Positions 452 through 47,971 of a stretch of 64,000 nucleotides of DNA are shown piece by piece. Positions within the stretch are counted from its first letter, which is position 1; each line of letters begins with the position of its first letter. The translations under genes and the position numbers were made by a program. The notes under the pieces are model-generated. The model was not told the origin of the DNA, made no database searches, and saw only the letters and a list, made by a program, of their open reading frames with translations. Source of the stretch: a virus; the IMG/VR virus record IMGVR_UViG_3300021964_009390, positions 158,462 through 222,461 of that record; one strand, written 5' to 3'.

Positions 452-459
452 TATTTATG
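452..459 (-). promoter_or_regulatory. Late promoter for the gene starting at 420
   Basis: CATAAATA on the minus strand, 31 bases upstream of the ATG at 420. It overlaps the uvsY start region on the other strand, so the two divergent units share about 40 bases. The longer leader makes this less certain than other late sites. Confidence 0.45.
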
Positions 460-852
460 GATGTAATAGAGCAATATATACTAGAACTTGAAAAAGATGT
501 TAAGTTGGACCAGTTCAACATACGGGATTGCCAAATGAAACTACCGGCATACAAGCATAAATGGGTAGGTCGTCTGATGAGACACAAGCACGAAGTAGTA
601 AAACTAAACCAAAAGAAACAATCTCTTAAAAAAACAGTCGTGAACAAGATACAAAGCGCTAGTACATACAAGGTATCAAAACCAGCTGCAGAAAAAGCGG
701 CTAGTACACATGATAGTATAGTGGATATAACCAATAAGATAGATGAACTCAACGTAATCATTGAATTTTTAGAAAAATCCGAGCGGATACTGAGCAGCAT
801 GACGTTTGATATAAAAAACCTTGTAGAAATCATGAAACTAGAAACAACATGA
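457..852 (+). CDS. uvsY: UvsY-like recombination mediator
   Basis: A 131-residue protein close to the length of T4 UvsY (137). The N-terminal pattern (LELEKDVKLDQFNIRDCQMKL, then KW and a Lys-rich helix with QKK) follows T4 UvsY, and the protein is helical and basic throughout. UvsY loads the UvsX recombinase onto gp32-covered single-stranded DNA. Its stop overlaps the uvsW start (ATGA at 849-852), the same uvsY-uvsW neighbourhood as in T4. It is transcribed from a sigma70-like promoter that would leave almost no leader. No Shine-Dalgarno is seen. The call rests on motif similarity and synteny. Confidence 0.8.
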   Translation: MDVIEQYILELEKDVKLDQFNIRDCQMKLPAYKHKWVGRLMRHKHEVVKLNQKKQSLKKTVVNKIQSASTYKVSKPAAEKAASTHDSIVDITNKIDELNVIIEFLEKSERILSSMTFDIKNLVEIMKLETT

Positions 853-2309
853 ACAAGTTGGTACAGCTGAGTTGGGATAATACTAAAAATGTTGCTATTA
901 TCAAGTGTGATCCAGATCTATTTGGTCACATCAGAGAACAATTCAGTATACCGAACAAGCAATACAGATTTCAGCGTCGTTTCTCCCGATACACCCCTAA
1001 GAGGTTGTATGCTATCACACCAACTGGTCGCTTTTTACCTGGAATATTTTATGAAATAAAGAAATTTATAAATGATACATACAACAACATATCATTTGGT
1101 TATAGTAATGTGTTTTTAAACAACATAAAACCCCGATATTTTATAGATGATCTAGCCAGTTTACGATTAGATTTAAGAGACTATCAACAAAATATAGTAA
1201 AAAAATGCCTGCAAATAGGTAGAGGTGTAGTAGTACTAGCCACTGCCGGTGGTAAAACCCTCACAACAGCATGCTTGGTAGAGTCTATATATAAAAAATG
1301 TGAAAAAACTAACGATTTTAAATGTTTAGTGATAGTACCCACTCTAAATCTAGTACATCAAACACATTCAGATTTTGAAGACTACAATGTATCATTCACA
1401 ACATGTAAATGGACCGGTGATGAACCGTTAGACCCGACATCCAATGTGATTGTAGCCAATGTAGGTATCTTACAAAGCTCAAAAACAGATATTGACTGGA
1501 TAAAATACATAGATCTATTAGTCGTTGATGAAGTACACATGCTAAGAAAAGGTAATAAAATAAACAAACTTGTGTCAAGTATCATAACCCCTAACAAATA
1601 CGGTCTGACTGGTACTTTACCAGAATGTAAGTTAGATCAATGGAATATATACGGCTTGATAGGACCTAAATTATACGAGAAATCGAGCAAAGATTTGAGA
1701 GATCAAGAATTTATAGGTAATGTACAGGCACAAGTACTCAAATTATCTTACAACCAATCACCGGAGCATTGCACCAACCCTAATGATAGATACAGAAAAG
1801 AAGTAGAATTTTTAACAAAAAATACATACAGAAATAAACTAATTGCACGACTATGTAAGAATTTTAAAAACAATTGTTTAATAATGGTAGATTATATAGA
1901 ACATGGTCAGTTAATCCATGACAACATAATAGAACAAAACCCAGACAAACAAGTATATTATATAAAAGGAGATGTAGAGATTGAAGAGCGAGAGAAGATA
2001 AGACAGTTGATGGAACAACATGATGATATAGCTATTGTAGCAATATCAAAAATATTCTCCACTGGAATCAATATTAAAAATTTACACTATATTGTTTTTG
2101 CTGGTGGTGGTAAAGCTAAAATAAAAATAATACAAAGTATAGGAAGAGGTTTAAGATTGCATAATGGTAAGAAAGATCTTATAATAGTAGATATTATGGA
2201 CCAACTAACATATGGGATCAAACATGGGCAAAAAAGACTCACTTTATATGACGATGAAAAAATCAAATACAACATCAAAACCGTTGAAGAAACGAAAACG
2301 AGCGAGTAG
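849..2309 (+). CDS. uvsW: UvsW-like SF2 DNA/RNA helicase
   Basis: A 486-residue superfamily 2 helicase. Walker A is ATAGGKTL at residues 131-138 and the Walker B box is DEVH at 227-230. The TGTLP motif III and a C-terminal IQSIGRGLR motif VI are also present. T4 UvsW (587 residues) unwinds branched DNA and R-loops, drives branch migration and shuts down origin-dependent initiation late in infection. An N-terminal region of about 100 residues precedes the helicase core, as in UvsW. The start overlaps the uvsY stop by four bases. The C-terminus overlaps the gp55 gene. The protein is about 100 residues shorter than T4 UvsW. Confidence 0.93.
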   Translation: MNKLVQLSWDNTKNVAIIKCDPDLFGHIREQFSIPNKQYRFQRRFSRYTPKRLYAITPTGRFLPGIFYEIKKFINDTYNNISFGYSNVFLNNIKPRYFIDDLASLRLDLRDYQQNIVKKCLQIGRGVVVLATAGGKTLTTACLVESIYKKCEKTNDFKCLVIVPTLNLVHQTHSDFEDYNVSFTTCKWTGDEPLDPTSNVIVANVGILQSSKTDIDWIKYIDLLVVDEVHMLRKGNKINKLVSSIITPNKYGLTGTLPECKLDQWNIYGLIGPKLYEKSSKDLRDQEFIGNVQAQVLKLSYNQSPEHCTNPNDRYRKEVEFLTKNTYRNKLIARLCKNFKNNCLIMVDYIEHGQLIHDNIIEQNPDKQVYYIKGDVEIEEREKIRQLMEQHDDIAIVAISKIFSTGINIKNLHYIVFAGGGKAKIKIIQSIGRGLRLHNGKKDLIIVDIMDQLTYGIKHGQKRLTLYDDEKIKYNIKTVEETKTSE

Positions 2310-2727
2310 AAAAGACACAAACACTTACGTAAACCAGAAAGAGTTTATGGAAGCCCTCCGTGTGTATTACGATACTGATGAAATTAGCACCGAACTCGCT
2401 ACATACGTTAAGAAAATTGCTGAAGGGCTATCATATGCACCAAATTTTATAAATTATACTTATAAAGACGAGATGGTTGGTGACGCTATACTCAAAATGA
2501 TGCAGGCACTAGAGTATAAAAAATTTGACTTAGAGAACAGAGACAATCCTTTTGGTTATTTTACAACAATCGCGTTTCATGCTTTTATTAATCGAATTAA
2601 AAAAGAAAAAAAGCAACGCGAAACAATTAATGATTACCAGGAACAAGTGTATCAAGAGTTGATGAATGACGGTTCATCAGCGACAGGTGCGCATGTATAC
2701 ATAGCTGATAGTACAGACGACGAATAA
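2254..2727 (+). CDS. 55: gp55-like late sigma factor
   Basis: Related to T4 gp55, the small sigma-family protein that directs host RNA polymerase to TATAAATA late promoters. Matching features are YVNQKEFMEAL near the N-terminus, then IAEGLSYAPNF, YKDEMVGDAI, NPFGYFTTIAFHAFINRIKKEKK, which cover the sigma region 2-like core, and a short acidic tail. I chose the ATG at 2254 (157 residues), because T4 gp55 has only a short leader before YVN. ATGs at 2212, 2224 and 2248 would extend the overlap with uvsW. The 26 late octamers in this window fit the presence of this factor. No SD is visible. Confidence 0.88.
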   Translation: MKKSNTTSKPLKKRKRASRKDTNTYVNQKEFMEALRVYYDTDEISTELATYVKKIAEGLSYAPNFINYTYKDEMVGDAILKMMQALEYKKFDLENRDNPFGYFTTIAFHAFINRIKKEKKQRETINDYQEQVYQELMNDGSSATGAHVYIADSTDDE

Positions 2728-2740
2728 TCTTGATTGTATA

Positions 2741-6820: not shown

Positions 6821-6828
6821 TATAAATA
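6821..6828 (+). promoter_or_regulatory. Late promoter for the gene at 6834
   Basis: A perfect TATAAATA ending five bases before the ATG at 6834, so the predicted +1 is the A of ATG. It lies just downstream of the 5663 gene within an otherwise early block. Confidence 0.8.
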
Positions 6829-7059: not shown

Positions 7060-7088
7060 TTGATATATTCACATATATACTCTATAAT
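7060..7088 (+). promoter_or_regulatory. Sigma70-like promoter for gp43
   Basis: TTGATA at 7060-7065, a 17-bp spacer and TATAAT at 7083-7088. The GTG start at 7095 is the seventh base after the -10 box, the expected +1. The mRNA would be leaderless with GTG as its first codon. Confidence 0.85.
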
Positions 7089-7094: not shown

Positions 7095-9701
7095 GTGTAT
7101 AGGAATATAATTTACGACGCTAAAAACGAAACGTGTAAACTCTTCACGTGGGACAACTCTGGAAACCGGGTGTGTTATGACACGAGTTTCAACCCGTATG
7201 TGTACTATGAAACTAATGGTAAATCTAACGGTAAGAGCATATTCAATACCGCGGTAAAAAAACGATCATTCCGGACACAATACGATCGATACAAATTTGT
7301 AAAAGACTGCGGTGTAAAAAGGGTATTTGAAAATATACCTAGTGAACAACAATTTTTAATAGATCAGTACTGGGAAAAAAACGAATCTCCGGAATTCACA
7401 GAAAATCCTTTGAAGGTATTATTTATAGACATTGAAACATACAGCCCAGATTCATTTCCAGATGTAGATAACCCCTCTCACCCAATCAATGTAGTAACCA
7501 TATACGATACATTACAAAATAAATTTTATTCTTGGGGTACCAAACAATACGATACTACAGATATTGAAACACCCGGTGGTAGCATTGTTAAAAAAGACAT
7601 ATTATACTATCATTGCAAAACAGAAGTTGAGATGCTACGTCGCTTCTTGGATTATATAAAAAATGATTACCCGGATATCATAACTGGTTGGAATAGTGAA
7701 TTATTTGACATACCATACATAATTTCACGAATGGGTCGTATCTTGGATGAGAATGAATATAAACAACTGAGCCCTGTAGGTGAAGTGTTCTGCCGTGAGA
7801 TCGCCGGTCAGTTTGGCAAGAGCCGTTTCCGGTGGTATATAAAAGGTGTTTCTAGTTTAGATTACCTAGATATATACAAGAAATTCAGCATGGGTCTCCG
7901 GGAGAATTACAAACTCGACACCATTGCACAGTTCGAACTAGGTGATAAAAAAATAGACTATGGCGGTATGAATCTAGCTCAATTAGCAGATGAAAATTGG
8001 AAAACATTCGTAGACTACAACATACAAGACGTAAACCTACTTGTCCGGATGGAAGAGAAGTTGCAGTACCTTAAACTGCTGAGAATGTTGGCGTATGTGG
8101 GACTATCACCACTAGAAAGCGCCATGGGGACATTAACTGTAATCACAGGTGCATCCGTCATACAAGCACGTAAAGACGGCTATGTAATACCAACATTTAT
8201 AAAAGAAAACACAAAAGATGGTAAATACGAAGGAGCGTATGTAGGAGAACCAGAGCGTGGTTTTCAACAAGACATTGTAAGTTTTGATGCTAACAGTCTA
8301 TATCCTAGTACCATGATAACACTGAATTTGTCACCGGAAACTAAAATAGGTTCTGTTGTAGAGAAAACCCCGGATCATATAACAGTGAAGCATGTGAACG
8401 GTAAGTTATTCAATTTATCACACGATAAATTCTTAAAATTCATCAAAAAAGAAAAAATAGCTATAACAAAAGCTAAAGCACTGTTTAGCCAAAAAACAAA
8501 AGGCATCATACCTAAAATTGTAGACAAGCTGTATGCGCAACGTGTTGAGTTCAAAAAGGAATTGGATAGAACACGCCGTGAGTTATCAAAACTTGATCCC
8601 GAAACATCAGAATATCAAAACAAAAAAAATGAATCTGAAACTTGGTGGGTAAAACAATATACAGTAAAAATATTGATCAACAGTATATACGGTTACTTCG
8701 GTAACAAATATGCACCTATGGGAGACAGTGACATCGCGCGAAGCATAACATTAACTGGCCAAGCTGTTATCAAGCAATCAAATAAAATACTGTATGATTA
8801 TATAAAACAAATGACAGGTAATGACAACTTACGTGTTGAAGATGTAGTCAAATATAATGATACGGACTCAAGCTACATTAGTATAAAATGTATAAATGAC
8901 AGCAAATCTCTTGAGCTGTGTGAATCCGGTAAAGTTGCTGATCATACATATAAAATAGTACAAGACATTGAGGATCATTTGAACGTGGAGATTACTAAAT
9001 GGGCTCAACGTAATTTAAATAGTCACGATCCCCGGTTCGTTTTCAAACGAGAGTGTATAGCAGATGTAGGTATGTTTCTAGAAAAAAAGAGATATGTTCT
9101 ACATGTGTTAGATGATGAAGGTATACCTGTTGATAAGTTCAAGTACACCGGTGTAGAGGTAGTGAGAACCACCATACCCGAACCTGTGAAGCCGTATATT
9201 AAGAAAATAATCGAAACAATGCTCACCACTCGAAACCTAGGTGAAACCAACAAGCTGTTGCATGAAACATACGATATATTCAAGAGTTTGGAAGTAGAAG
9301 ACATCGCTTTCGCGATGGGTTGTAAGGAATATGATAAATATGCCAGTAGATGTGATGAGTTTAACACGTGCAAAGGTATGCCGATCCATGTGAAAGCTAG
9401 TTATATACACAACAAAATCTTAGAAAAATTAAATATTGAGAACAAATATGAATCTATCGGTAATGGTGACAAGGTGAGATACTTGTATGTACAACAACCG
9501 AACAGATACGGGGTGAATGCCATAGGTTACAAGTACTATTATCCGGATGAATTCAAAGAAATATTCAAAGTGGATCGAGAATTAATGTTTGACAAGATTG
9601 TATATAGTATCATCGAAAGATTTTACGATTGTGTGAAATGGAAAGCAAAAAAACCTGGCATGGCAGTACAGACTGATTTATTTGAACTGTTCTCTACATG
9701 A
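7095..9701 (+). CDS. 43: gp43 family B DNA polymerase
   Basis: An 868-residue replicative polymerase (T4 gp43 is 898). The proofreading exonuclease motifs are DIE at 112-114, GWNSELFDIPYI for Exo II, and YNIQDVNLL for Exo III. The polymerase motif A is DANSLYPS near 398, motif B is KILINSIYGYFGN near 525, and motif C is DTDS at 589-592. The start is GTG at 7095, fixed by the sigma70-like promoter whose predicted +1 falls exactly on it; the sequence around it has no SD. No intein or intron interrupts the gene. It acts with clamp gp45, clamp loader gp44 and SSB gp32, all present in this window. Confidence 0.97.
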   Translation: MYRNIIYDAKNETCKLFTWDNSGNRVCYDTSFNPYVYYETNGKSNGKSIFNTAVKKRSFRTQYDRYKFVKDCGVKRVFENIPSEQQFLIDQYWEKNESPEFTENPLKVLFIDIETYSPDSFPDVDNPSHPINVVTIYDTLQNKFYSWGTKQYDTTDIETPGGSIVKKDILYYHCKTEVEMLRRFLDYIKNDYPDIITGWNSELFDIPYIISRMGRILDENEYKQLSPVGEVFCREIAGQFGKSRFRWYIKGVSSLDYLDIYKKFSMGLRENYKLDTIAQFELGDKKIDYGGMNLAQLADENWKTFVDYNIQDVNLLVRMEEKLQYLKLLRMLAYVGLSPLESAMGTLTVITGASVIQARKDGYVIPTFIKENTKDGKYEGAYVGEPERGFQQDIVSFDANSLYPSTMITLNLSPETKIGSVVEKTPDHITVKHVNGKLFNLSHDKFLKFIKKEKIAITKAKALFSQKTKGIIPKIVDKLYAQRVEFKKELDRTRRELSKLDPETSEYQNKKNESETWWVKQYTVKILINSIYGYFGNKYAPMGDSDIARSITLTGQAVIKQSNKILYDYIKQMTGNDNLRVEDVVKYNDTDSSYISIKCINDSKSLELCESGKVADHTYKIVQDIEDHLNVEITKWAQRNLNSHDPRFVFKRECIADVGMFLEKKRYVLHVLDDEGIPVDKFKYTGVEVVRTTIPEPVKPYIKKIIETMLTTRNLGETNKLLHETYDIFKSLEVEDIAFAMGCKEYDKYASRCDEFNTCKGMPIHVKASYIHNKILEKLNIENKYESIGNGDKVRYLYVQQPNRYGVNAIGYKYYYPDEFKEIFKVDRELMFDKIVYSIIERFYDCVKWKAKKPGMAVQTDLFELFST

Positions 9702-12643: not shown

Positions 12644-12672
12644 TTGAATTATTTATGTTAGTATACTATAAT
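12644..12672 (+). promoter_or_regulatory. Sigma70-like promoter for queC
   Basis: TTGAAT at 12644-12649, 17 bp, TATAAT at 12667-12672 inside the recurring TATACTATAAT. The ATG at 12678 starts six bases after the -10 box, implying a leaderless transcript. It overlaps the divergent late promoter at 12650-12657. Confidence 0.85.
12650..12657 (-). promoter_or_regulatory. Late promoter for the gene starting at 12640
   Basis: CATAAATA on the minus strand, nine bases before the ATG at 12640. It lies between the -35 and -10 boxes of the divergent queC promoter, so the two cannot easily be occupied at once. Confidence 0.75.
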
Positions 12673-12677: not shown

Positions 12678-13388
12678 ATGAAAAAATGCATAATCCCGGT
12701 CAGCGGTGGTATAGACTCATCAACCATACTGTATTATACACACAAATCACGCAAGGATTTTGATGAAATACATACAGTCACTTTTGATTATGGTCAGAGG
12801 CATAGCAAAGAGATTGAACATGCCGAATTGATAACCAAAAATGTCAGCACCAGTCACAAAGTTTTAGATGTAACATTTTTAAAAAACATTATAACGTCTA
12901 GCTCATTGACCAATGATAGTATAGATGTAGCAAAAACTGCAGATGTACTAGGTGACCCACAAACCGTCAATTATGTACCTAACAGAAACATGATCTTACT
13001 ATCCATTTGTACTGGTTATGCGGAGAGTATCGGAGCCAGCGTTGTGTACCATGGCGCCGCACAAGTTGATAGTGAGGCTGGTTATTGGGATGGTACTCAA
13101 GAGTTTATTAGTTGCATGAACCTAGTGAACAGTTTGAACAGACGAGATCGGGTGACTATTGAAGCACCTCTGTTACAAATGTCAAAACAACAAATAATTA
13201 AACTAGGTGTAGATAGTGATTTGGATTTCAGTAAAACGTGGACCTGTTATGAAGGTGGTACTAAAGCATGTGGTAGATGCACCGCATGCAGTAGCAGAAT
13301 CAAAGGATTCGTAGATAATAAATTAATTGACCCAGTGGAGTATGAAATAGATATACCATGGGACAAATACAACTGCGAGAGACTGTAA
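12678..13388 (+). CDS. queC: QueC-like 7-cyano-7-deazaguanine (preQ0) synthase
   Basis: A 236-residue PP-loop ATPase. The SGGIDSS pyrophosphate loop is at residues 9-15. The C-terminal zinc site TWTCYEGGTKACGRCTAC has all four cysteines with QueC spacing (C-x7-C-x2-C-x2-C). QueC converts carboxy-deazaguanine to preQ0 using ammonia and ATP. In phages this feeds deazaguanine DNA modification that blocks host restriction. The amidotransferase gene starts one base after its stop, which points to a joint function. FolE, QueD, QueE and a DpdA-type transglycosylase were not found in this window; they may lie elsewhere, or host preQ0 precursors may be used. The gene has its own leaderless-type promoter. 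Confidence 0.93.
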   Translation: MKKCIIPVSGGIDSSTILYYTHKSRKDFDEIHTVTFDYGQRHSKEIEHAELITKNVSTSHKVLDVTFLKNIITSSSLTNDSIDVAKTADVLGDPQTVNYVPNRNMILLSICTGYAESIGASVVYHGAAQVDSEAGYWDGTQEFISCMNLVNSLNRRDRVTIEAPLLQMSKQQIIKLGVDSDLDFSKTWTCYEGGTKACGRCTACSSRIKGFVDNKLIDPVEYEIDIPWDKYNCERL

Positions 13389-13389
13389 T

Positions 13390-14061: not shown

Positions 14062-14765
14062 TGAAAAATAAAAAAATTGAACTTAAACCTATACTCATTG
14101 TGAGCTGTACTCAAAATGAATCATGGAAAGATACAAGATTAGGATCATGTAAAGCCAGCTTGGAAAACCAAGCTAAATTCAAGTTTGTAACAAACAATAA
14201 ACAAGGACTACCTAAATGTTATAATAAATTTTTAACAAAAAAAATAGCAGAAAAACATGATATAATTGTATTTTGTCATGATGATTTATATATAGATGAT
14301 TTAAAATTGCGAGGAAAATTATACAAATCGCTATACGCCGACAAATATGATATTGTCGGCCTCGCCGGTGCTAGTACATGCAAAATAGAACATGGTAAAC
14401 CTACCCTGTGGCATTTGATGAGCGAGCGAGATACATGGAGCGGTACTGTTTTCCACCCGCGTGGTGTTGATACAAATCAAGTGATGTCTACAACGTTCGG
14501 ACCAACTCCATCTAGATGTCTCGTGTTAGATGGTGTGTTTCTTGCAGTGAACATACACCGTGCCCGGGAGAAAAAATGGAAATTTAATGATACATTTGAC
14601 TTTCATCATTATGACATAGCTAGCTGTATTGATGCAAATACCAAGCAATTGAAACTCGGTACATGTATGATACACGCTATTCACGACTCTCCCGGCTTAC
14701 ACTCTATAGAAGACCCAGACTGGCTGTCTAGCCAGGACAAATTTTTAAAGTTGTATGGTGAGTAA
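14061..14765 (+). CDS. GT-A fold glycosyltransferase-like protein
   Basis: A 234-residue protein with features of the small glycosyltransferase family found in StrF-like proteins. It opens ILIVSCTQNE, has FCHDDLYIDD near residue 72 as a DxD-like site, and later LDGVFLAVNI and FDFHHYDIASCIDA, the typical sequence in which the acceptor-lobe Asp follows a Tyr. The start overlaps the amidotransferase stop by one base (TAATG), so it is probably cotranscribed with queC. The acceptor is unknown. Its location in the deazaguanine operon raises the possibility of a modified-base glycosyltransferase, but a virion or host glycan acceptor is equally open. Confidence 0.7.
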   Translation: MKNKKIELKPILIVSCTQNESWKDTRLGSCKASLENQAKFKFVTNNKQGLPKCYNKFLTKKIAEKHDIIVFCHDDLYIDDLKLRGKLYKSLYADKYDIVGLAGASTCKIEHGKPTLWHLMSERDTWSGTVFHPRGVDTNQVMSTTFGPTPSRCLVLDGVFLAVNIHRAREKKWKFNDTFDFHHYDIASCIDANTKQLKLGTCMIHAIHDSPGLHSIEDPDWLSSQDKFLKLYGE

Positions 14766-14779
14766 CAATACCTTATAAT
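14751..14779 (+). promoter_or_regulatory. Sigma70-like promoter for gp41
   Basis: TTGTAT at 14751-14756, 17 bp, TATAAT at 14774-14779, overlapping the end of the preceding glycosyltransferase gene. The ATG at 14786 coincides with the predicted +1. Confidence 0.75.
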
Positions 14780-14785: not shown

Positions 14786-16108
14786 ATGATAGGTATAGAC
14801 GAGCAGTTATTTGAGCACGTGCTCATATACAACTGTATGACAGATGAAAGGTATCTAGCTAGTGTGATAGATTATCTCAAACCGGAGCATATCAAAGACT
14901 CTAACATTAAGCAGACATACAATTTGTTAGTAGACTTTTACAATGATCACAGTGAGTTACCAAGCTCTACAGAAATTAAAACACGTTGTGATAATGACGA
15001 TTTAAAAGCCGCAGTCCGGATCACTGTGAGTTACATCAAGAATATCGATAAAAACTATAATAAAGATGAATTGTATAAAAACACAGAACAGTTCATTAAG
15101 GAACGTGCAGTGTATAGTACCTTGATGGAGGTTGTAGATCAAGGCTCTTCCGGGAGTTTAGAGCCGGCAGATCTATTAACTAAATTTGAATCTGCATGTA
15201 ACATTAATTTGAATGTTGATGTAGGTGTAAATTATTTTGAAGATATCGACCGGCATGTAGACGATATAAATAGAGAAGAGAAGTACGTGAGTACCGGTTG
15301 GCAATGGCTTGATAAAAAACTCAATGGGGGTTTTGTAGAAACTGGCCGGGCATTGTATGTTTTCGCTGGAGAGACTAATGTAGGTAAAAGTATATTGCTA
15401 GGTAATATAGCTACTAACTTATGTAAGCAGGGTAAAAATGTGTTGTTAGTTTCATTAGAAATGTCAGAGATGCTATACTCTAAGAGGTTGAGCTCAAACA
15501 TAGCACAGGTACCTATAAATGAGACTCATTTAAGTGTAGAATATTTGAAAGAATCTATTAAAAATTTTAAGAACACTCACAAAGATTGTTCTTTGATCGT
15601 CAAAGAGTTTCCTCCTAGTACCGTGACACCTCAACAACTAACAGCATATATTAATAAGTTATGCCAAACAGTGATGCGCCCAGACGCAATAGTACTAGAT
15701 TATATCAACCTGTTGAAAGGTCCACCTGGTACAAACAGTTATGAACAAATTAAAAAGGTAACTGAGAATGTAAGAGCCATGTCATATAAATTTGAATGCC
15801 CGGTCATCACCGCAACTCAGTTAAACCGTTCTGGTTACAACGAGACTGACCCGGGATTGGATACAGTCGGAGAAAGTTATGGTATGGGAGCAACAGCAGA
15901 TTGTGTGGTGAGTATATGGCAGCGAGATGAAGATGCTGAATTGAATGTAATCAATTTAGGTATGATGAAAAACCGGTTCGGTCCTAACTTCGGTACATGT
16001 GCGATGGATATAGACTATGGTACTTTGACAGTCACAGAACAAGAAAACGTGAACGAAACAGAACAGATGAATGAAACTATCGGTACCCTATCTATATTGA
16101 GCAATTAA
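14786..16108 (+). CDS. 41: gp41 replicative DNA helicase (DnaB-like)
   Basis: A 440-residue DnaB/RecA-fold helicase (T4 gp41 is 475). Walker A GETNVGKS is near residues 195-202. The Walker B strand AIVLDYINLLKG and a downstream TQLNRSG arginine-finger/H4 region are present. The N-terminal 150 residues correspond to the primase-interacting domain. It pairs with the gp61 primase at 23381. The start is supported by the sigma70-like promoter ending six bases upstream. The C-terminal 25 residues are acidic and Asn/Glu-rich. Confidence 0.93.
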   Translation: MIGIDEQLFEHVLIYNCMTDERYLASVIDYLKPEHIKDSNIKQTYNLLVDFYNDHSELPSSTEIKTRCDNDDLKAAVRITVSYIKNIDKNYNKDELYKNTEQFIKERAVYSTLMEVVDQGSSGSLEPADLLTKFESACNINLNVDVGVNYFEDIDRHVDDINREEKYVSTGWQWLDKKLNGGFVETGRALYVFAGETNVGKSILLGNIATNLCKQGKNVLLVSLEMSEMLYSKRLSSNIAQVPINETHLSVEYLKESIKNFKNTHKDCSLIVKEFPPSTVTPQQLTAYINKLCQTVMRPDAIVLDYINLLKGPPGTNSYEQIKKVTENVRAMSYKFECPVITATQLNRSGYNETDPGLDTVGESYGMGATADCVVSIWQRDEDAELNVINLGMMKNRFGPNFGTCAMDIDYGTLTVTEQENVNETEQMNETIGTLSILSN

Positions 16109-17740: not shown

Positions 17741-18036
17741 TGAACATGTATAGAGACAGTACAGTCGATCCGGTGCAGTCTCTGTATGATAAGGATTTAG
17801 AACATACATTTTATAGTTTTTGCAGTTTTGTATGTATGTCAACAAACAAAAAACAAAACATAGCTAATATATTTTTATATGTATTGGAGAATCAAGAAAT
17901 TTTAAACCTATACATGGAACTAGGAGACCACTCAACAAAGTATGACGCCATCCGGAGTTTTTTAACTATTGAACCATCTTTACAAAAAAGCAAATATATA
18001 AAAAGATATATAAACAAAAACGTTGAAACAAATTAA
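17740..18036 (+). CDS. Small helical protein upstream of gp32, unknown function
   Basis: A 98-residue protein starting MNMYRDSTVDPVQSLYDKDL. It is Lys/Tyr-rich and predicted helical (FYSFCSFVCMSTNKKQNIAN and so on). I chose the ATG at 17740 because it overlaps the previous stop (TAATG); an ATG at 17689 would run deep into the DHH gene. Its size and position next to gp32 resemble the T4 gp33 late co-activator neighbourhood, but no sequence similarity to gp33 is evident by eye, so I leave it unnamed. A C-terminal clamp-binding motif was not recognised. Confidence 0.65.
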   Translation: MNMYRDSTVDPVQSLYDKDLEHTFYSFCSFVCMSTNKKQNIANIFLYVLENQEILNLYMELGDHSTKYDAIRSFLTIEPSLQKSKYIKRYINKNVETN

Positions 18037-18051
18037 ACAATATACTATAAT
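18023..18051 (+). promoter_or_regulatory. Sigma70-like promoter for gp32
   Basis: TTGAAA at 18023-18028, 17 bp, TATAAT at 18046-18051 within the recurring TATACTATAAT. The ATG at 18066 would have a leader of about eight bases. Confidence 0.85.
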
Positions 18052-18065: not shown

Positions 18066-18953
18066 ATGAGCACATTCACAACAAGCATGTTCGATTCTAT
18101 CAAAGAATCACTTTCGAAAGCACCATCATCCGGATTCAAGGATGTTTTAAGATTCAAACCAGGTACCTCGTGTGAGTTGAGGCTGTTACCTAATGTAAAA
18201 AAACCTCAAAATACATTTTACCATTACTACACATATGGCTGGGAAAGCTTCGCAACTGGTCAATATATAAATGTGGTGTCACCGCAAACTGTAGGAGAAC
18301 GATGCCCAGTATCAGAGGCACGTTATCAACTCCGGCAACGAGGCGGTGCTGAAGAGCAAGAAAAATCCAGCAAGGTTTTGAGGAGAGAGCAATGGCTAGT
18401 CAACACATATGTTATAAGTCACAATGAAGAACCAGAAAACAATGACAGTGTAAAAATCTTAAGATACGGTAAACAATTACACAAGATTATAACTGATGCA
18501 ATTGAAGGAGAAGATGCAGACCAATTTGGTGCTAAAGTATTTGATCTGTCTGATGAAGGGTGTACTTTTCGAGTAAAATGCGACAAACAAGGTGATTTTC
18601 CAACATATGTCGCTAGTAAATTTTTGATTCCTGGATCAATCGCCGGACTGGCCCCAGCAGATCATGAAAAAATATATGAACAGGTACATGAACTTGACGA
18701 TGTGTTTCCTATAAAATCGTATGATGAAATACAAGAAATTGTAGATGAACATTTGTACTGCCGGAGTACAACTTCAGTCACTGTAGCGACAGAGTCAGTG
18801 TCAAAAACAACAAGTGATACAGACACTGACCTTGATGAAGATGTCCCTATGGACTTTCCGGAAAAAGAGACACCGAAACAGTCTAAAAAGAAAGAACCGG
18901 AAGTTGATATAGACATACCAGATGATTTGTTAGAAGGTTTGGATGATCTGTAA
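18066..18953 (+). CDS. 32: gp32 single-stranded DNA-binding protein
   Basis: A 295-residue protein (T4 gp32 is 301). The OB-fold core aligns around CELRLLPNVKK, the GERCPVS segment, and the middle region ending in FPIKSYDEI. The acidic C-terminal tail ends DDLLEGLDDL, matching the T4 tail that contacts replication partners. Three of the four T4 zinc ligands (His64, Cys77, Cys90) appear replaced by Tyr, Val and Ser; only the first Cys of the CPVC motif remains, so this SSB is probably zinc-free. The promoter is a strong sigma70-like site. The last base of the stop region overlaps the next ATG (TAATGG). Confidence 0.92.
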   Translation: MSTFTTSMFDSIKESLSKAPSSGFKDVLRFKPGTSCELRLLPNVKKPQNTFYHYYTYGWESFATGQYINVVSPQTVGERCPVSEARYQLRQRGGAEEQEKSSKVLRREQWLVNTYVISHNEEPENNDSVKILRYGKQLHKIITDAIEGEDADQFGAKVFDLSDEGCTFRVKCDKQGDFPTYVASKFLIPGSIAGLAPADHEKIYEQVHELDDVFPIKSYDEIQEIVDEHLYCRSTTSVTVATESVSKTTSDTDTDLDEDVPMDFPEKETPKQSKKKEPEVDIDIPDDLLEGLDDL

Positions 18954-19612
18954 TGGCTGAAAAAACTGATAAAAAACCACCGGTAGAATCTACACCACCG
19001 GAACCTAAGCTCCATCCAGAACCACCACCAGTAGGAGCTGCAGAGCAAAACGGGTACCGGAAAGCGAGGGAAAATATATCTACTCCAGAAGATGTACAGT
19101 TAATTGAAAATTTTATCGGTACAATTTATGGAGATGCAAAACGTATTGACAAAGCTAACATAGGTAGTAATCAGTTTACACAAGGTTTAAAGTTTGATGC
19201 TAAAAAACAAATTTTAGATGTACGTAACACAGTAAGTACTTCACCAAATCAAGCAAACCCACCCACCATGCCAAGCAATTCTACACCACCACCTGTACAA
19301 CCACAGCAAGCAATGCCCTTACCACTAGTCCCGGGTCAACAAATAGATTTCCCACCACAGCAATCTGTAGCATCTCCTGGTGACTCTTTGATACTCAAAC
19401 ACGAAATCGATCAGATCAAAGAACAAGTGAAAGAGATAAAAAAATTGTACGACGAATTTTTCAAATTGAAAGTGGTCAAAGGTAAATGGGTTATAAAAAC
19501 TAAAGAAAAAGAACAAACCGCGCCCAGTGTAGCCAAAGCGTGGAACATTATAAATAAACTGTTGCGTAACAAAACAACCGATATTAATATAGTTTATACA
19601 GAAAATGAATAA
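18953..19612 (+). CDS. Pro-rich protein between gp32 and gp45, unknown function
   Basis: A 219-residue protein starting MAEKTDKKPPVESTPPEPKL. The first 35 residues and residues 95-140 are Pro/Gln-rich and likely disordered. A folded segment near 45-90 (EDVQLIENFIGTIYGDAKRI) and a coiled coil near 145-170 (HEIDQIKEQVKEIKKLYDEF) lie between and after them. The C-terminus is basic. No family recognised. It is translationally linked to both gp32 (TAATG) and gp45 (eight-base overlap), which suggests a replisome- or clamp-associated role, but this is only context. Confidence 0.75.
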   Translation: MAEKTDKKPPVESTPPEPKLHPEPPPVGAAEQNGYRKARENISTPEDVQLIENFIGTIYGDAKRIDKANIGSNQFTQGLKFDAKKQILDVRNTVSTSPNQANPPTMPSNSTPPPVQPQQAMPLPLVPGQQIDFPPQQSVASPGDSLILKHEIDQIKEQVKEIKKLYDEFFKLKVVKGKWVIKTKEKEQTAPSVAKAWNIINKLLRNKTTDINIVYTENE

Positions 19613-20336
19613 ACTATTAATTGACGATACATCGTGTTTTGTAAACACGTTTTTGTCATCTATAACTAAAGTAACTGAAGATTGTATTTTAGATATAACA
19701 GATGACAAATTCACATGCTTGAGCGCCACATCTGACGGTACGCTAGTACAACTAGTTGAGATGCATAATGACAATAAATTCATACAGACATGCAACATTC
19801 CAGATATAAAGAGATTACATAAAATATTGGGGTGTGTACCACAGGAATTACCAACTGAACTCAAAGTCACACAAAACAGTATATCGTACAGTTCATCCGC
19901 CACTAGATTTAAATTTTATCTACTAGAGGATGGAATATTATCCACCCCTGCTGTAAGTGTAGAAAAAATAAAAAAACTAGAATATGATATAGAATTTACT
20001 GTACCATATGACAAATTGACAGAGCTAGTCAAAGGTAGTACATTTTCAAACGAAACTGAAAAGATGTACATATACACTGACGAGAACAATTCTGTGTATG
20101 GGGAGTTGACCGATCGAGAAAAGCCTAATGTAGACAGCTTTGCAGTACAATTACATCAAGGAATAGACAACTCCATATCCCCATTACCATTTAATTTTGA
20201 AAACATTCGAATATTGAGCAGCTCTAGATGTAATGAATATAAATTTTCAATAAACTCTCAATTAGGTGTAGTGAAAGTGGATATATCACGTAACAAGTGC
20301 TATATATCTTATATAATTTCAACACTATTAAAGTAA
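19605..20336 (+). CDS. 45: gp45 sliding clamp
   Basis: A 243-residue DNA clamp subunit (T4 gp45 is 228). The two-domain clamp pattern is seen: the first repeat includes LDITDDKFTCLSATSDGTLV, and the second includes EYDIEFTVPYDKLTELVKGS. The C-terminal strands GVVKVDISRNKCYISYII match the gp45 family. It is the processivity factor for gp43 and, in T4, the mobile enhancer for late transcription with gp55 and gp33. The clamp loader gp44 is encoded far away at 48674. The start overlaps the previous gene. Confidence 0.88.
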   Translation: MNKLLIDDTSCFVNTFLSSITKVTEDCILDITDDKFTCLSATSDGTLVQLVEMHNDNKFIQTCNIPDIKRLHKILGCVPQELPTELKVTQNSISYSSSATRFKFYLLEDGILSTPAVSVEKIKKLEYDIEFTVPYDKLTELVKGSTFSNETEKMYIYTDENNSVYGELTDREKPNVDSFAVQLHQGIDNSISPLPFNFENIRILSSSRCNEYKFSINSQLGVVKVDISRNKCYISYIISTLLK

Positions 20337-20339: not shown

Positions 20340-20699
20340 ATGAAAGTAAGAAACAATTTGTACACCCCTAGTTATTTCATGAAACGTATGAAAGACAATG
20401 GTTATGGTATATGGAAAGTGTTTGACAAATACGGTCCACACGACAGCAGATACTGGACCATGTTGATCGACCCTGGAGGGTTCTCGGTATGGGTCACATG
20501 TTATTTTAATAAAGAGGAGTTGAATGATGTGTATTTTGAACTGGACGATGGTGGTAACCGAATACCTAAAAAATTGCTGATAAAAACCGCTAGTATTGAA
20601 ACAATAATATCCAATTTAATGAAATTTGGTATAGATAATGAGACAAAGTTTGATTCTTCTATTATGGATATAAATAATCTCAATGACGCGAGAAAATAA
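20340..20699 (+). CDS. Small protein downstream of gp45, unknown function
   Basis: A 119-residue protein starting MKVRNNLYTPSYFMKRMKDN. The centre is Trp/Tyr-rich (YWTMLIDPGGFSVWVTCYFN), suggesting a compact alpha-beta fold, followed by a helical C-terminus (ETIISNLMKFGI). I do not recognise the family. The ATG lies three bases after the gp45 stop, and the 3' end overlaps the next gene by 17 bases, so it belongs to the gp32-gp45 operon. T4 has gp44 and gp62 at this place, but this protein is too short and unlike either. Confidence 0.75.
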   Translation: MKVRNNLYTPSYFMKRMKDNGYGIWKVFDKYGPHDSRYWTMLIDPGGFSVWVTCYFNKEELNDVYFELDDGGNRIPKKLLIKTASIETIISNLMKFGIDNETKFDSSIMDINNLNDARK

Positions 20700-23129: not shown

Positions 23130-23132
23130 ATA
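23125..23132 (+). promoter_or_regulatory. Late promoter for the gene at 23140
   Basis: CATAAATA overlapping the stop of the exonuclease gene and ending seven bases before the ATG at 23140. Confidence 0.7.
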
Positions 23133-23345: not shown

Positions 23346-23374
23346 TTGCCAGGTAATATGTTGTAAGCTATAAT
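23346..23374 (+). promoter_or_regulatory. Sigma70-like promoter for gp61
   Basis: TTGCCA at 23346-23351, 17 bp, TATAAT at 23369-23374. The ATG at 23381 is exactly the predicted +1, so the primase mRNA is predicted leaderless. Confidence 0.85.
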
Positions 23375-25297: not shown

Positions 25298-25305
25298 TTT
25301 AAATA
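25298..25305 (+). promoter_or_regulatory. Late promoter for the gene at 25312
   Basis: TTTAAATA ending six bases before the ATG at 25312, within a very AT-rich intergenic stretch. Confidence 0.6.
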
Positions 25306-29663: not shown

Positions 29664-29834
29664 ATGAACAAACACAGATTTGAAAGTCTGTACAAAGAGC
29701 TTGAAAACTCTATGATTGGTTACGAGGTGAATGGTAACCCCATGCAAAGAACATACACACTACGCAATATAGCGTACTACTTGCTAAAAAAACATACCAC
29801 CTCGATAGAAAATCAAACTACAGAGCATAAATAA
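29664..29834 (+). CDS. Small late protein (56 residues), unknown function
   Basis: A 56-residue protein starting MNKHRFESLYKELENSMIGY, with a charged helix and a C-terminal TLRNIAYYLLKKHTT helix. It is one of only three genes here with a late promoter, a leader and an SD-like AAAGGA eight bases before ATG. This implies strong translation. The stop codon overlaps the next late promoter. No family recognised. A small abundant head protein is possible by context. Confidence 0.7.
   Translation: MNKHRFESLYKELENSMIGYEVNGNPMQRTYTLRNIAYYLLKKHTTSIENQTTEHK
29826..29833 (+). promoter_or_regulatory. Late promoter for the gene at 29839
   Basis: CATAAATA overlapping the stop of the 29664 gene, five bases before the ATG at 29839. 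Confidence 0.75.
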
Positions 29835-30761: not shown

Positions 30762-31676
30762 GTGACATTTCTACAAACACCTGATGCTAGAGATTTCTCG
30801 CTGGACCCTACATTTGTAGAATTCAGCAAAGATGATAATGTAGACGTAGCAGTTGTTGGGAACGGTGGTAGCATCACTGGGTTGAGTGAGACTGATATAA
30901 ACACAATAAACAATTGCCGTTTGTTCAGATGCAATTGGGCGTTCAAAGACCCAAGTAAAATTAAAAAGCAATACACATTATATTTCTCACAAGCATATGG
31001 TGCCGCCACTCATGGTATCAGCAGCGAATCGCACCTGGCAGAACAAGTGGACTCATGCATCAACGATGGTACGATGACCGTGTATCGTTACTGGATAGAC
31101 ATACTGTACAACGAGAACCCTTTATGTACATTTGTGAGTCCGAATGGAGTACCAGTGTGGCCCACCACCGGTATACAGATGTTAATGTTCGCAGCGTTTC
31201 AAGTAAACGCACCCGCGGTTCATATTGCTGGTATTGATTTATACTCACATGCTCGACCTGCGCATCAGATGTCCAAACAAGAAACAATGGAATATTTGAA
31301 AAAACATGGCAAACCGTTCAGTGACAGCCGTGATGGTAGCTGTGGTATAACATTACAACGAGTTAATTTAACCTACACAACACCAAGTGACTGGCTATCC
31401 CGGTTGAAACAGTCACACATGACATATCATTTTTTACATGTTGATATTATGTTAATGATGATATGCTTTTACCGTTTACACACCACAAAAACTCGTACAT
31501 ATATATATGAAAGCAAAGTCGTGGAGAAAATACAACAAATCGCCATGGACAATATCGACATGTTGCATGATTATGTGACGAGTTCTTCTAGTTTGGATCT
31601 GGACATAAACAAAAAAAATTGCTATCGTATGTGGAGACTGGTGAACCAAACAGCAAATGACATGTACAATGTATAA
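30762..31676 (+). CDS. Sialyltransferase-like glycosyltransferase (GT42-type)
   Basis: About 304 residues. VAVVGNGGSITGL, a following RLFRCNWAF strand, and a later PTTGIQMLMFAAFQV plus IAGIDLYSHA resemble the nucleotide-binding core of bacterial CST-I/CST-II sialyltransferases (VVGNGPSL, FRCN, TSGVY, CGIDFY). The acceptor and donor are unknown, and CMP-sialic acid synthesis genes are not in this window. Start is uncertain: no in-frame ATG precedes the core, so GTG at 30762 is chosen; TTG at 30711 lies in the terminator hairpin. TATAAATG at 30755-30762 overlaps this GTG, so the true start is unclear. It sits between head and tail genes. Confidence 0.68.
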   Translation: MTFLQTPDARDFSLDPTFVEFSKDDNVDVAVVGNGGSITGLSETDINTINNCRLFRCNWAFKDPSKIKKQYTLYFSQAYGAATHGISSESHLAEQVDSCINDGTMTVYRYWIDILYNENPLCTFVSPNGVPVWPTTGIQMLMFAAFQVNAPAVHIAGIDLYSHARPAHQMSKQETMEYLKKHGKPFSDSRDGSCGITLQRVNLTYTTPSDWLSRLKQSHMTYHFLHVDIMLMMICFYRLHTTKTRTYIYESKVVEKIQQIAMDNIDMLHDYVTSSSSLDLDINKKNCYRMWRLVNQTANDMYNV

Positions 31677-31679
31677 ATA
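31672..31679 (+). promoter_or_regulatory. Late promoter for the gene at 31685
   Basis: A perfect TATAAATA overlapping the previous stop, five bases before the ATG at 31685. Confidence 0.85.
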
Positions 31680-32286: not shown

Positions 32287-32294
32287 ACTAAATA
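32287..32294 (+). promoter_or_regulatory. Late promoter for the tail sheath gene
   Basis: ACTAAATA, 20 bases before the ATG at 32315. The leader carries AGGAAGGA at 32298-32305, the strongest Shine-Dalgarno in the window. Confidence 0.75.
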
Positions 32295-32314
32295 CTTAGG
32301 AAGGAAAATTTATT

Positions 32315-35005
32315 ATGGCAAGAACAATACAATCCCCTGGTGTAGAAATCAATGAAGTAGACTTAAGCTCACGTACTGTGTTCCCGGTAGGTACCAATGT
32401 ACATATACAAGGCTTTTCAGCCAATGGTCCCACGGACGAGACGTTGAGCGTAAGTACATTTGCAGAATTCGAGCTCATTTATGGTGCTCCAACAAATGCT
32501 GCAGAAAGATATTTTTATCATACCGTCAAATCGGCATTCAACAGTCCGGCTAACATAATGGTCAGCCGCTTACCTTATGGTAACGACCGTGGAGACGGGT
32601 TCGAAGACGAGCTTTACAGCGCGTTGGTGTTCCCGGTGAGTGGTGATGACTACTTAGCAGACCCGGTCAGCGGCTCCGCTCTAGTAGACAAAGACATCGA
32701 CACTGCTACTGATGCAGATGGTTATAAACTAGCTAGTGGTGCTACAAAAGCCGATGGCTTAACTCCATACGACGCCGGCAAAAACGTGTATGACAATGGA
32801 TATACAGACACAACAGCACCTGACGGTACAGTTACACAAACCGCTATGGAAGCTGCTATTGTTGCTGGTGCTTTTGAACTGGCCGGTGACACACTAGCAA
32901 GTGTGAGCGACAGCACACACTTGAAATTCGGAGCTCCGTTGAGAATCGATTTGTTACCTGTAGAGTATCAAGCGCTGAAGAACGGTGAGATCGAATTTGT
33001 AGACAACTGTCTGGTACCATTAGACTCAGAAGGTGCGATTGACACCGGTGCTGAAATCATGGGCAAAATAGCCCCAGGTGGCTCGGCTCCAACCGACACA
33101 TACGCAAACGAAGTGTTGAAGTTCGGTCCAACATACACCGGTACAACACCTCGTTCCACAACCACCAATTTGGATGACTTCAAAAAAGCCATCAAATACG
33201 CTGGTATGGTATTGGTGAACAAGGCACAGACAAGTGTCAACACATATTTCGAAGGCTATTACATCGCTTTCGGTGACAACGCGCAGTTCGCAATCGCGGA
33301 CGGATCCGCTGGAAACGACACATTTAGTGCGATCGAAGGGGTGAAAACTTTTGGTAAAACTGGTCAATACTTTGACATACCGGAAGCACGACTCAACTTC
33401 AGCACCACAGCACATACAGTGACTGGTGCCCAAGGTAGCATGAGTGAAGTGTTTGAGAACATTCCATCATTTGACATCGCTACAAACGAGAACAAAGACA
33501 CGTTGGGTATAGGTGTTTTCAAATTGCGTAAGAGTATATACGCTACAGACACAACCATGTTGGACTACACATTGGATGAAGCACATGTGGGTAGTCTTGA
33601 TGCGTATCGTCAAATCGCTAACATCAACGGTGGTAAACCTAAGAGTTTCTATTTGGAGACTCTAGAAACATCCAGCACGTTGTTGTCAGTGTATGTTAAC
33701 AAACAAATCTCTGAAAAGACCGGTACATTCTTGACTGACACGACCAATCCAAACATTCCAAACACGAAAATAAGCTTCCATTCTGAAGCTCAAAAATATG
33801 CTTGGGGTATCGGAACATATCAAGAAGAAACACCCGGTAGCAGCAAGAAAAGTATCGGTAGCATCGTTCAAAAGATAGAGCGTAATTTTGAAAAATTGCA
33901 AAATCTTGACGAGTATGACATCGATGTGACTCTTGATGCTGGATTGAGCACCATCAACACGTACGTGCAGTACAAGCAAGAGGAGCTCAAAAACACATCC
34001 GGTAGCGGATACACTAGAACTACTGAAGATTCACAAATCGCAGTGGCTTATGATGATGAGCTTGTGTTGGACATCAGTGGTCTGCAAAGCAACACAATTG
34101 GTGCAAGCACCGGTGATGCTTCAAGCTGGACATTGAGTGACGGTACTGCTGCATGGGGAGGTCAAGAAGCGATCAATGCATGGAAGGCAGTGACAAATTC
34201 ATTTATCGTATTCGCACAAAATCGTAGAAAAGATCACATGACGATCATCGATCCGTTGAGATACATATTTGTACAAGGTAAAAACGGTATAACCATGAAG
34301 GACAGTTCCAAGAACTTCAGTCAACATGTGTTCTATCCGTTGAAACACTTGTTAGGTACAACAAACACCAACTACGCTGCATGTTATGGAAACTGGGTCA
34401 AGCAATATGACGCTATGACAGACAAAGATTTCTGGGCACCAAACAGTGGTTTGATTGGAGCTGCATTCGCGAGAAACGATCAGCAGTATCAACCATGGTT
34501 TGCACCAGCTGGTTTCACTAGAGGTTTGATCACCAACGCGTTGGACATGGCGATACGCCCAAATCAGAAGCAACGTGATCAATTCTACAAGATCAGTCTG
34601 AACCCGATAGCGTTCTTCCCTGGGGATGGATTCGTGATCTTTGGTCAGAAAACATTGCAGTCCAAGCCCAGTGCGTTCGACAGAATCAATGTACGTAGAA
34701 TGTTCTTGTATTGTGAAAAAGCGGTACGTAGAACGGTCAAGTACCTGGTGTTTGAACCAAACGATTTCACGACTCGGACAACAGTGTTATCATTGTTGAA
34801 TCCAATATTCCAACGAGTCAAATCCACTCGAGGCCTGTTCGACTACTTGATAGTATGTGACGAGCGTAACAACCCTCCAGCTGTGATAGACGGTAACGAA
34901 CTGGTGGTTGATATATACATTAAACCCACACGAGCTGCAGAATTCATCTTGGTGAACTTCTTTGCGACTCGTACAGATCAAAACTTCTCAGAGTTGATTG
35001 GATAA
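32315..35005 (+). CDS. 18: gp18 tail sheath protein
   Basis: An 896-residue sheath protein, much longer than T4 gp18 (659). The N-terminus (QSPGVEINEVDLSSRTV) and the C-terminal domain with RRMFLYCEKAVRRTVKYLVF, DGNELVVDIYIKPTRAAEFI and a final FSELIG match contractile sheath proteins. The extra length lies in the Ala/Thr/Gly-rich middle (roughly residues 105-330), likely surface-exposed insert domains. It contracts around the gp19 tube. Expression appears high: late promoter, leader and strong SD. It forms an operon-like unit with gp19. Confidence 0.93.
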   Translation: MARTIQSPGVEINEVDLSSRTVFPVGTNVHIQGFSANGPTDETLSVSTFAEFELIYGAPTNAAERYFYHTVKSAFNSPANIMVSRLPYGNDRGDGFEDELYSALVFPVSGDDYLADPVSGSALVDKDIDTATDADGYKLASGATKADGLTPYDAGKNVYDNGYTDTTAPDGTVTQTAMEAAIVAGAFELAGDTLASVSDSTHLKFGAPLRIDLLPVEYQALKNGEIEFVDNCLVPLDSEGAIDTGAEIMGKIAPGGSAPTDTYANEVLKFGPTYTGTTPRSTTTNLDDFKKAIKYAGMVLVNKAQTSVNTYFEGYYIAFGDNAQFAIADGSAGNDTFSAIEGVKTFGKTGQYFDIPEARLNFSTTAHTVTGAQGSMSEVFENIPSFDIATNENKDTLGIGVFKLRKSIYATDTTMLDYTLDEAHVGSLDAYRQIANINGGKPKSFYLETLETSSTLLSVYVNKQISEKTGTFLTDTTNPNIPNTKISFHSEAQKYAWGIGTYQEETPGSSKKSIGSIVQKIERNFEKLQNLDEYDIDVTLDAGLSTINTYVQYKQEELKNTSGSGYTRTTEDSQIAVAYDDELVLDISGLQSNTIGASTGDASSWTLSDGTAAWGGQEAINAWKAVTNSFIVFAQNRRKDHMTIIDPLRYIFVQGKNGITMKDSSKNFSQHVFYPLKHLLGTTNTNYAACYGNWVKQYDAMTDKDFWAPNSGLIGAAFARNDQQYQPWFAPAGFTRGLITNALDMAIRPNQKQRDQFYKISLNPIAFFPGDGFVIFGQKTLQSKPSAFDRINVRRMFLYCEKAVRRTVKYLVFEPNDFTTRTTVLSLLNPIFQRVKSTRGLFDYLIVCDERNNPPAVIDGNELVVDIYIKPTRAAEFILVNFFATRTDQNFSELIG

Positions 35006-35016: not shown

Positions 35017-35024
35017 ACTAAATA
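35017..35024 (+). promoter_or_regulatory. Late promoter for the tail tube gene
   Basis: ACTAAATA, 18 bases before the ATG at 35043. The leader has AGGAG at 35029-35033 as Shine-Dalgarno. Confidence 0.75.
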
Positions 35025-35042: not shown

Positions 35043-35714
35043 ATGGCAGATCTAGAAAATTATAACATAGAGAAATTCTACACGGCATTAATCAACCGTG
35101 AGATGGCGAGACAACATCAGTTTCGTATCACTCACATCGAGCCCGGCTTCGCCCCTGACGTGGTAGAAGGAATAGACGATATTGAAACCAAATTGTATGT
35201 ACAGAGCACCACATTACCTGGTCGTTCTATCACAAACAACGCGATCAATTATCATGGTATTGACTTCAACTTACCTGGCAACGCCAAGTACACAGGAAGT
35301 GACAGCTGGAGCGTGACATTCAGAATGGATCAGAACCTCAACATCCGCCGGATGTTTGAAGACTGGTCATTCGCGATATTCAACGACCGGAAAGCCAGTG
35401 GTAGTGTCACTCGTAGCAACGAGTCGTACATGACCATGACACAATTTGACCAACAAGGTGATTTCACCTCACAATACACATTCTGGGGCATCTACCCAGT
35501 CACAGTAGGTGAGTTGAGTTACGACATTGGAACAGATGGTGCACCAGTCACAATGGATGTAAGCTTTGCATATCATTACTGGAGCAGAGTCAACAGAACC
35601 AACCGTGAGATTACTGAGAGCCCAGCCAAAAACGCTGAAACATCATCAGATGATTCAGAAAAAGTGGTGGCTGACGGACTTGGTGGTCAAGCTGGAGGTT
35701 TTGACGCAGCGTAA
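35043..35714 (+). CDS. 19: gp19 tail tube protein
   Basis: A 223-residue tail tube subunit (T4 gp19 is 163). Typical features are NYNIEKFYTALINREMARQH at the start, the STTLPGRSITNNAINYHGID loop, WSVTFRMDQNLNIRRMFEDW, and the closing SYDIGTDGAPVTMDVSFAYH strand. The C-terminal 35 residues are an Ala/Ser/Gly-rich extension absent from T4. It has its own late promoter and SD, and is followed by a strong terminator. Confidence 0.93.
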   Translation: MADLENYNIEKFYTALINREMARQHQFRITHIEPGFAPDVVEGIDDIETKLYVQSTTLPGRSITNNAINYHGIDFNLPGNAKYTGSDSWSVTFRMDQNLNIRRMFEDWSFAIFNDRKASGSVTRSNESYMTMTQFDQQGDFTSQYTFWGIYPVTVGELSYDIGTDGAPVTMDVSFAYHYWSRVNRTNREITESPAKNAETSSDDSEKVVADGLGGQAGGFDAA

Positions 35715-43042: not shown

Positions 43043-43050
43043 ATTAAATA
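43043..43050 (+). promoter_or_regulatory. Late promoter for the gene at 43058
   Basis: ATTAAATA, seven bases before the ATG at 43058. Confidence 0.65.
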
Positions 43051-44134: not shown

Positions 44135-44135
44135 C

Positions 44136-47771: not shown

Positions 47772-47779
47772 TATTTAGA
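47772..47779 (-). promoter_or_regulatory. Late promoter for the small terminase
   Basis: TCTAAATA on the minus strand, five bases before the ATG at 47766. It overlaps the upstream edge of the divergent sigma70-like promoter. Confidence 0.65.
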
Positions 47780-47786
47780 CTGACAC

Positions 47787-47815
47787 TTGAAATATACAAT
47801 ACTATCATGTATAAT
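47787..47815 (+). promoter_or_regulatory. Sigma70-like promoter for the small 47822 gene and dut
   Basis: TTGAAA at 47787-47792, 17 bp, TATAAT at 47810-47815. Predicted +1 is the ATG at 47822, which supports that small gene. Confidence 0.85.
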
Positions 47816-47821
47816 ATTGAA

Positions 47822-47971
47822 ATGATATCTATAACAGTAAACGGGGTGGATTATAAATTACCACCGGAGAAGTTTTCAGTATTGTTAAGTTGGTTACAAT
47901 CTAACGGCGCTATTAAAGTGTTAGAAGCATCAAATCCAGACCAAGACGGGAGGACATTAATAAATGAGTGA
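47822..47971 (+). CDS. Very small protein (49 residues) upstream of dut, unknown function
   Basis: A 49-residue protein starting MISITVNGVDYKLPPEKFSV, with a beta-hairpin followed by LLSWLQSNGAIKVLEASNPD. The start reminds one of ubiquitin-like sulfur carriers (VNG...), but there is no C-terminal GG, so that is not claimed. The strongest support is that the sigma70-like promoter places +1 exactly on this ATG. Its stop overlaps the dUTPase start by eight bases, suggesting coupling. Confidence 0.62.
   Translation: MISITVNGVDYKLPPEKFSVLLSWLQSNGAIKVLEASNPDQDGRTLINE

Follow-up and report, generated by a model that had tools for sequence, protein, structure and literature searches.

How does translation start in a T4-like phage whose promoter boxes lie directly against the start codons? 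T4 is the textbook model of SD-led, leader-controlled phage translation, and it controls gp43 and gp32 through leader sites. The DNA analysed here (the window) covers the final 64 kb of a virus record that is 222,461 bases long; coordinates are those of the window unless the record is named. Core genes were assigned by tblastn against HTVC008M, T4, Syn9 and P-SSM2 and by profile searches. A T4-like myovirus core is present, comprising a replication set (homologues of gp43, 41, 32, 61, 44, 46, 47, uvsX and uvsW) and homologues of gp17, 18, 19, 21, 23, 25 and 6. The phage is T4-like yet distant, its gp43 sharing about 31% identity with those of the nearest annotated phages listed. Across the full record 263 genes were called by a simple ORF rule without a trained gene finder; starts were set at the first ATG, and gene starts were curated one by one for gp43 only.

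The question is raised by six promoters, before gp43, queC, gp41, gp32, gp61 and a small ORF at 47822, for which a sequence-only reading had described TATAAT and a TTG-type -35 box at a spacing of exactly 17 bp. Each promoter was re-checked and the spacing is exact in all six. As had also been stated, the start codon begins six to seven bases past the -10 box in five of them (intervening gaps of 6, 5, 6, 6 and 6), the single GTG start among the five being that of gp43 (7095). The exception, gp32, has TATAAT at -20, a 14-base gap and a predicted leader of about 8 nt. TATAAT-type features in the window, with their genes, are:

7060..7065, plus strand: -35 box TTGATA of the gp43 promoter; a TTG-type -35 is common to most of 81 gp43 upstream regions
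7083..7088, plus strand: -10 box TATAAT of the gp43 promoter at -12, 6-base gap, predicted +1 at GTG 7095
7095..9701, plus strand: gp43 DNA polymerase, GTG start, predicted leaderless; N-terminus aligns from residue 1 in relatives
12644..12672, plus strand: queC promoter TTGAAT-17-TATAAT, TATAAT at -11, 5 bp to ATG 12678
12678..13388, plus strand: QueC-like 7-deazaguanine enzyme, predicted leaderless (PHROG 1550)
14751..14779, plus strand: gp41 promoter TTGTAT-17-TATAAT, TATAAT at -12, 6 bp to ATG 14786
14786..16108, plus strand: gp41 replicative helicase, predicted leaderless (homology and profile searches)
18023..18051, plus strand: gp32 promoter TTGAAA-17-TATAAT, 14 bp to ATG, leader A/T-rich and without SD
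18066..18953, plus strand: gp32 single-strand binding protein, short leader (homology and profile searches)
23346..23374, plus strand: gp61 promoter TTGCCA-17-TATAAT, TATAAT at -12, 6 bp to ATG 23381
23381..24430, plus strand: gp61 primase, predicted leaderless (homology and profile searches)
47787..47815, plus strand: small-ORF promoter TTGAAA-17-TATAAT, TATAAT at -12, 6 bp to ATG 47822
47822..47971, plus strand: small ORF of 49 aa, predicted leaderless
443..448, plus strand: TATAAT at -14, 8 bp to ATG 457, no TTG at 17 bp
457..852, plus strand: UvsY-like recombination mediator (PHROG 231)
50789..50794, plus strand: TATAAT at -12 of the gp6-like baseplate gene at 50801

The same geometry recurs across the record. 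When the distance from -10 box to start codon was taken over all 263 genes, a check that had been proposed for the leaderless idea, the sigma70-type TATAAT had its mode at -12. It occurs at -13..-11 in 16 genes against 1.8 +/- 1.3 (maximum 5) in 300 dinucleotide shuffles, which bears out the earlier remark that chance is an unlikely source. Among 19 TATAAT-near genes the TTG spacer is 17 bp in ten, 16 bp in one and 18 bp in one. Leaderless bacterial genes have a published in-silico signature, TANNNT about 12 bp before the start (PMC3160421), and this likeness is met in the record. They differ in that they belong to cellular genomes and have sigma70-type boxes only, whereas here a phage late-sigma class dominates.

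This second class, the T4-late-type box TATAAATA found as TAAATA, was missing from the sequence-only reading. Its mode is -11 from the start codon over the 263 genes, and it lies at -12..-10 in 34 genes against 2.0 +/- 1.4 (maximum 8) in dinucleotide shuffles. Altogether about 70 of the 263 genes carry a near box, 20 with TATAAT at -15..-11 and 50 with TAAATA at -15..-10. The term replication-type promoters, used in the earlier description, fits a TATAAT class that is real, but not the larger late-type class, which includes tail and baseplate genes. T4 late boxes have their first T at -13 relative to the transcription start (PMC2988020). The modal TAAATA distance of the record, -11, therefore corresponds to the T4 register, but only on condition that the start codon is +1. 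A gp55-like late sigma factor and a gp45-like clamp are encoded in the window, and in T4 the gp45 clamp is an activator of late transcription. The features of this class are:

2212..2727, plus strand: gp55-like late sigma factor, expected to read the TAAATA class (39.7% to the late sigma of HTVC008M; PHROG 234, E=2e-31)
19605..20336, plus strand: gp45-like sliding clamp (PHROG 223, E=3e-7)
6823..6828, plus strand: TAAATA at -11 of ORF 6834
20671..20676, plus strand: TAAATA at -12 of ORF 20683
23127..23132, plus strand: TAAATA at -13 of ORF 23140
24868..24873, plus strand: TAAATA at -13 of ORF 24881
25300..25305, plus strand: TAAATA at -12 of ORF 25312
26393..26398, plus strand: TAAATA at -13 of ORF 26406
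29828..29833, plus strand: TAAATA at -11 of ORF 29839
31674..31679, plus strand: TAAATA at -11 of the tail-tube-like gene at 31685
43045..43050, plus strand: TAAATA at -13 of ORF 43058
50261..50266, plus strand: TAAATA at -11 of the gp25-like baseplate gene at 50272
57137..57142, plus strand: TAAATA at -13 of ORF 57150
193..198, minus strand: TAAATA at -11 of the gene starting at 187
12650..12655, minus strand: TAAATA at -15 of the gene starting at 12640, divergent from queC
24852..24857, minus strand: TAAATA at -15 of the gene starting at 24842
50200..50205, minus strand: TAAATA at -14 of the gene starting at 50191

Unlike T4 late promoters, which are without a -35 element, the TAAATA boxes are preceded by a weak TTG at -33/-32 in 29 of 141 late-class genes when the record and its relatives are pooled; this is unexplained and counts against the reading set out below.

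With either promoter class, RNA polymerase would start on the first base of the start codon or a few bases from it. RNA start sites usually favour a pyrimidine-purine step, and the base preceding the start codon is a pyrimidine in 32 of 35 modal-box genes compared with 92 of 178 no-box genes (Fisher p=4e-6). A zero leader need not hold throughout, since for many genes a leader of 1-4 nt remains possible. Boxes at -13..-15 imply such leaders, and at the +1 that they predict the pyrimidine-purine step is found in only 10 of 19 genes. It is possible, although we regard it as unlikely, that transcription does start from the boxes but several bases upstream, and that the mRNAs have ordinary short SD-less leaders of about 2-10 nt. 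The spread of the boxes across -15..-11, the gp32 leader and the step that stays with the box in those 10 of 19 longer-spaced late genes would agree with this. What such short leaders do not account for is that the modes sit at the zero-leader register and that C or T precedes the start in 24 of the 25 late genes with TAAATA at -11.

Ribosome binding was examined through SD-like motifs, which are at background in the record (10% against 9% at a control position; 71% in T4 by the same count) and likewise in its relatives. Over their first 40 nt, box genes show no weaker structure than other genes do (p=0.92), a point that weighs against the leaderless reading. Scarce SD motifs together with A-rich upstream regions might mean that the A/T boxes are themselves translation signals, A/U-rich ribosome-binding elements, with transcription beginning further upstream, and SD-less Bacteroidota are described as tuning initiation via bases near the start (PMC6847099). 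An A-rich enhancer, however, needs neither an exact TATAAT or TAAATA, nor a TTG at exactly 17 bp, nor a pyrimidine at -1, and the same late box lies further upstream in T4 and cyanophages; we consider this explanation improbable.

The sequence-only reading gave its listed genes no SD; over the record SD motifs are at background, but a few strong-SD genes exist. They number 18 of 263, and only one of the 18 also has a near box. Among them are the major capsid gene gp23 (record 4150) and the sheath and tube genes, for the last two of which a box shifted back would make room for a leader:

32289..32294, plus strand: TAAATA at -26 of gp18, predicted leader of about 15 nt with SD-like aggaagg
32315..35005, plus strand: gp18 tail sheath, SD-led contrast gene
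35019..35024, plus strand: TAAATA at -24 of gp19, predicted leader of about 13 nt with SD aggag
35043..35714, plus strand: gp19 tail tube, SD-led contrast gene

Since non-virion members such as the dUTPase-like gene at 47964 are also found, the strong-SD set is not cleanly virion-only. Gene order matters as well. A box is present in 11 of 113 genes that overlap an upstream stop or lie within 5 bases of it, compared with 59 of 150 others. Because the box is rarer at these stop-adjoining starts, the data suggest that leading genes are leaderless and following genes are coupled to the upstream stop, the coupling being inferred. Many of the remaining genes overlap or adjoin such a stop, most commonly as ATGA (27 no-box genes) or TAATG (14), and would probably be translated by termination-reinitiation.

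Is this arrangement peculiar to one record? A gp43 profile search matches over 400 viral contigs. Of the gp43 upstream regions 81 distinct ones were compared: 53 have their best TANNNT at -12 and 11 have it at -13, position -34 holds a T with 90% conservation, and the start codon itself drifts between GTG (49) and ATG (32). When the longer relatives (45-86% gp43 identity) were pooled, TAAATA stood at -12..-10 in 71 of 156 matches (8.6% expected, p=3e-34) and TATAAT at -13..-11 in 28 of 60 (8.6% expected, p=9e-15); these p-values assume independent matches, and related contigs are not independent. Orthologues of box genes at <=62% identity keep the exact box in 35 of 74 cases against 2 of 74 at a control position. 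The geometry is kept although the spacer DNA has diverged. The comparison also bears on start-codon miscalling, which would place the true starts at downstream ATGs behind ordinary leaders and is conceivable in so far as starts were called by first ATG. Yet in about 80 contigs the alignment of the gp43 homologue begins at residue 1 or -1 and the box keeps a fixed distance from that codon, and queC and gp61 orthologues behave likewise in several relatives, so that we give miscalling very little credence. In one branch of relatives an element close to tagatataattaggaac is conserved upstream of the gp43 -10 box:

gp43 upstream regions sharing the tagatataattaggaac-like element: L096, L112, L117, L121, L128, L132, L134-L137, L140

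By the same method no start-codon box mode was found in the stretches of T4, Syn9, P-SSM2, RM378 and phiM12 that were examined. A base-composition artefact, to be considered in an A/T-rich genome (GC 39%) with compact intergenic spaces and many TAA stop codons near starts, is rejected as next to impossible, as shuffles give about 2 against the 16 and 34 boxes observed, similar-GC phages lack the modes and the positions are sharp to one base.

Of the known systems, T4 late promoters (gp55/gp33/gp45) share the TATAAATA box and its register with our phage, and gp55 and gp45 homologues are present in the record. They differ in that the boxes lie further upstream and the mRNA leaders contain an SD; late boxes of T4 and cyanophages are mostly 18-40 bases before the start, those of T4 mostly at -34 to -18 in the stretch examined. 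Pelagibacter phage HTVC008M comes closer, with TAAATA at exactly -11 in 11 of 182 genes, but it has an SD in 53% of its genes and no TATAAT mode at -12. It also has an SD-led set with boxes near -24 to -27. In a survey of pelagimyophages, the prediction of late promoters is reported to have failed (PMC7029224). Mosig and Melnitz each show a single TAAATA(-11) gene in about 49 kb. In Thermus phage phiYS40 most middle and late transcripts are without leader, and in its host IF2 is raised and IF3 lowered (review PMC3594737). Systematic leaderless phage mRNA is hence already known in kind. Our phage resembles phiYS40 in its leaderless mRNAs, here predicted only and for about 70 of 263 genes, and differs in that it is T4-like, has TATAAATA boxes before late genes, encodes gp55 and gp45 homologues and includes an SD-led contrast set. 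No report of a leaderless T4-like phage was found in the open-access literature searched. A phage-encoded change of initiation factors was considered and dropped, no IF3 domain or gene being present in the record or 13 relatives. A bS21 homologue is found in 7 of 13 related records (G009-G012, G016-G018), five of them above the Pfam cut-off; as our record lacks bS21 yet has the box geometry, the protein is not required for it.

The exact spacings, the pyrimidine before the start, SD at background, conservation in relatives and absence of the modes from the T4 and cyanophage stretches are observed, and because of them the systematic leaderless reading, which had been proposed from the listed promoters, is upheld as the best fit to the sequence evidence, with predicted leaders of 0 to about 4 nt and no RNA data. 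Judged on DNA sequence alone, we are confident that promoters placing +1 on or near the start codon give leaderless or near-leaderless mRNAs throughout the clade. Early or middle genes would be expressed from host-type TTG-17-TATAAT promoters and late genes from the T4-type box, of which the gp55-like sigma, together with the gp45 clamp, is the presumed reader; while both homologues are observed, this reading of the boxes, like the RNA start at the boxes, is inferred. The mRNAs, with no leader or one of about 1-4 nt, would have their 5'-terminal AUG or GUG recognised directly by ribosomes, and efficient leaderless translation in the host is likewise an inference. Beside them would stand the small strong-SD set.

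Whether a large, uncultured T4-like lineage has rebuilt its expression around leaderless mRNAs from host-sigma and late-sigma promoters, keeping few SD-led genes such as those of major virion proteins and losing the T4 gp43 and gp32 leader-control sites, as an adaptation to SD-poor hosts, is a question on which we are evenly divided. If true, promoter and start codon are fused throughout a widespread T4-like clade of marine and fresh waters, and phages can rewire how they translate without giving up the replication, late-sigma and virion core. The predictions would be that ribosomes are recruited to 5'-AUG and 5'-GUG ends in infection, that gp43 is free of leader-based control, and that translation of the most abundant virion proteins is initiated in a different way. 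The fusion would also provide a practical rule for start and promoter annotation in these uncultured phages.

Regarding the host, the record encodes PSCyt2+PSD1 (DUF1549/DUF1553) and DUF1501 genes (record 49004-51052 and 58513-59781), the DUF1501 gene with a late box at -14. These families, which we take to be associated with Planctomycetota and Verrucomicrobiota, suggest a host of this kind for the record. Several Verrucomicrobiota are SD-poor (PMC10783764), in keeping with such a host. The 18 other related records have neither DUF1501 nor PSD1/PSCyt2 genes; since these are confined to this one record of 19, the host of the whole clade is open. A search for the host via MAG contigs gave only remote matches (29-31% gp43 identity). 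In a remote T4-like contig binned as Anaerolineae (L065, 30% gp43 identity), 3 of 30 genes have TATAAT at -12.

Two further features of the record deserve mention. A tmRNA gene (record 32277-32660; Rfam RF00023, 90 bits, E=1.9e-35) has an unusually long predicted tag ending in ALLAA, and no similar DNA was found among the phage records searched. Genes for QueC and a glutamine amidotransferase domain protein (window 12678-14061), a PTPS/QueD-like protein and GTP cyclohydrolase I (record 147818 on the minus strand, and 152277) suggest a 7-deazaguanine pathway. The queC, PTPS-like and cyclohydrolase genes all have TATAAT at -11/-12.
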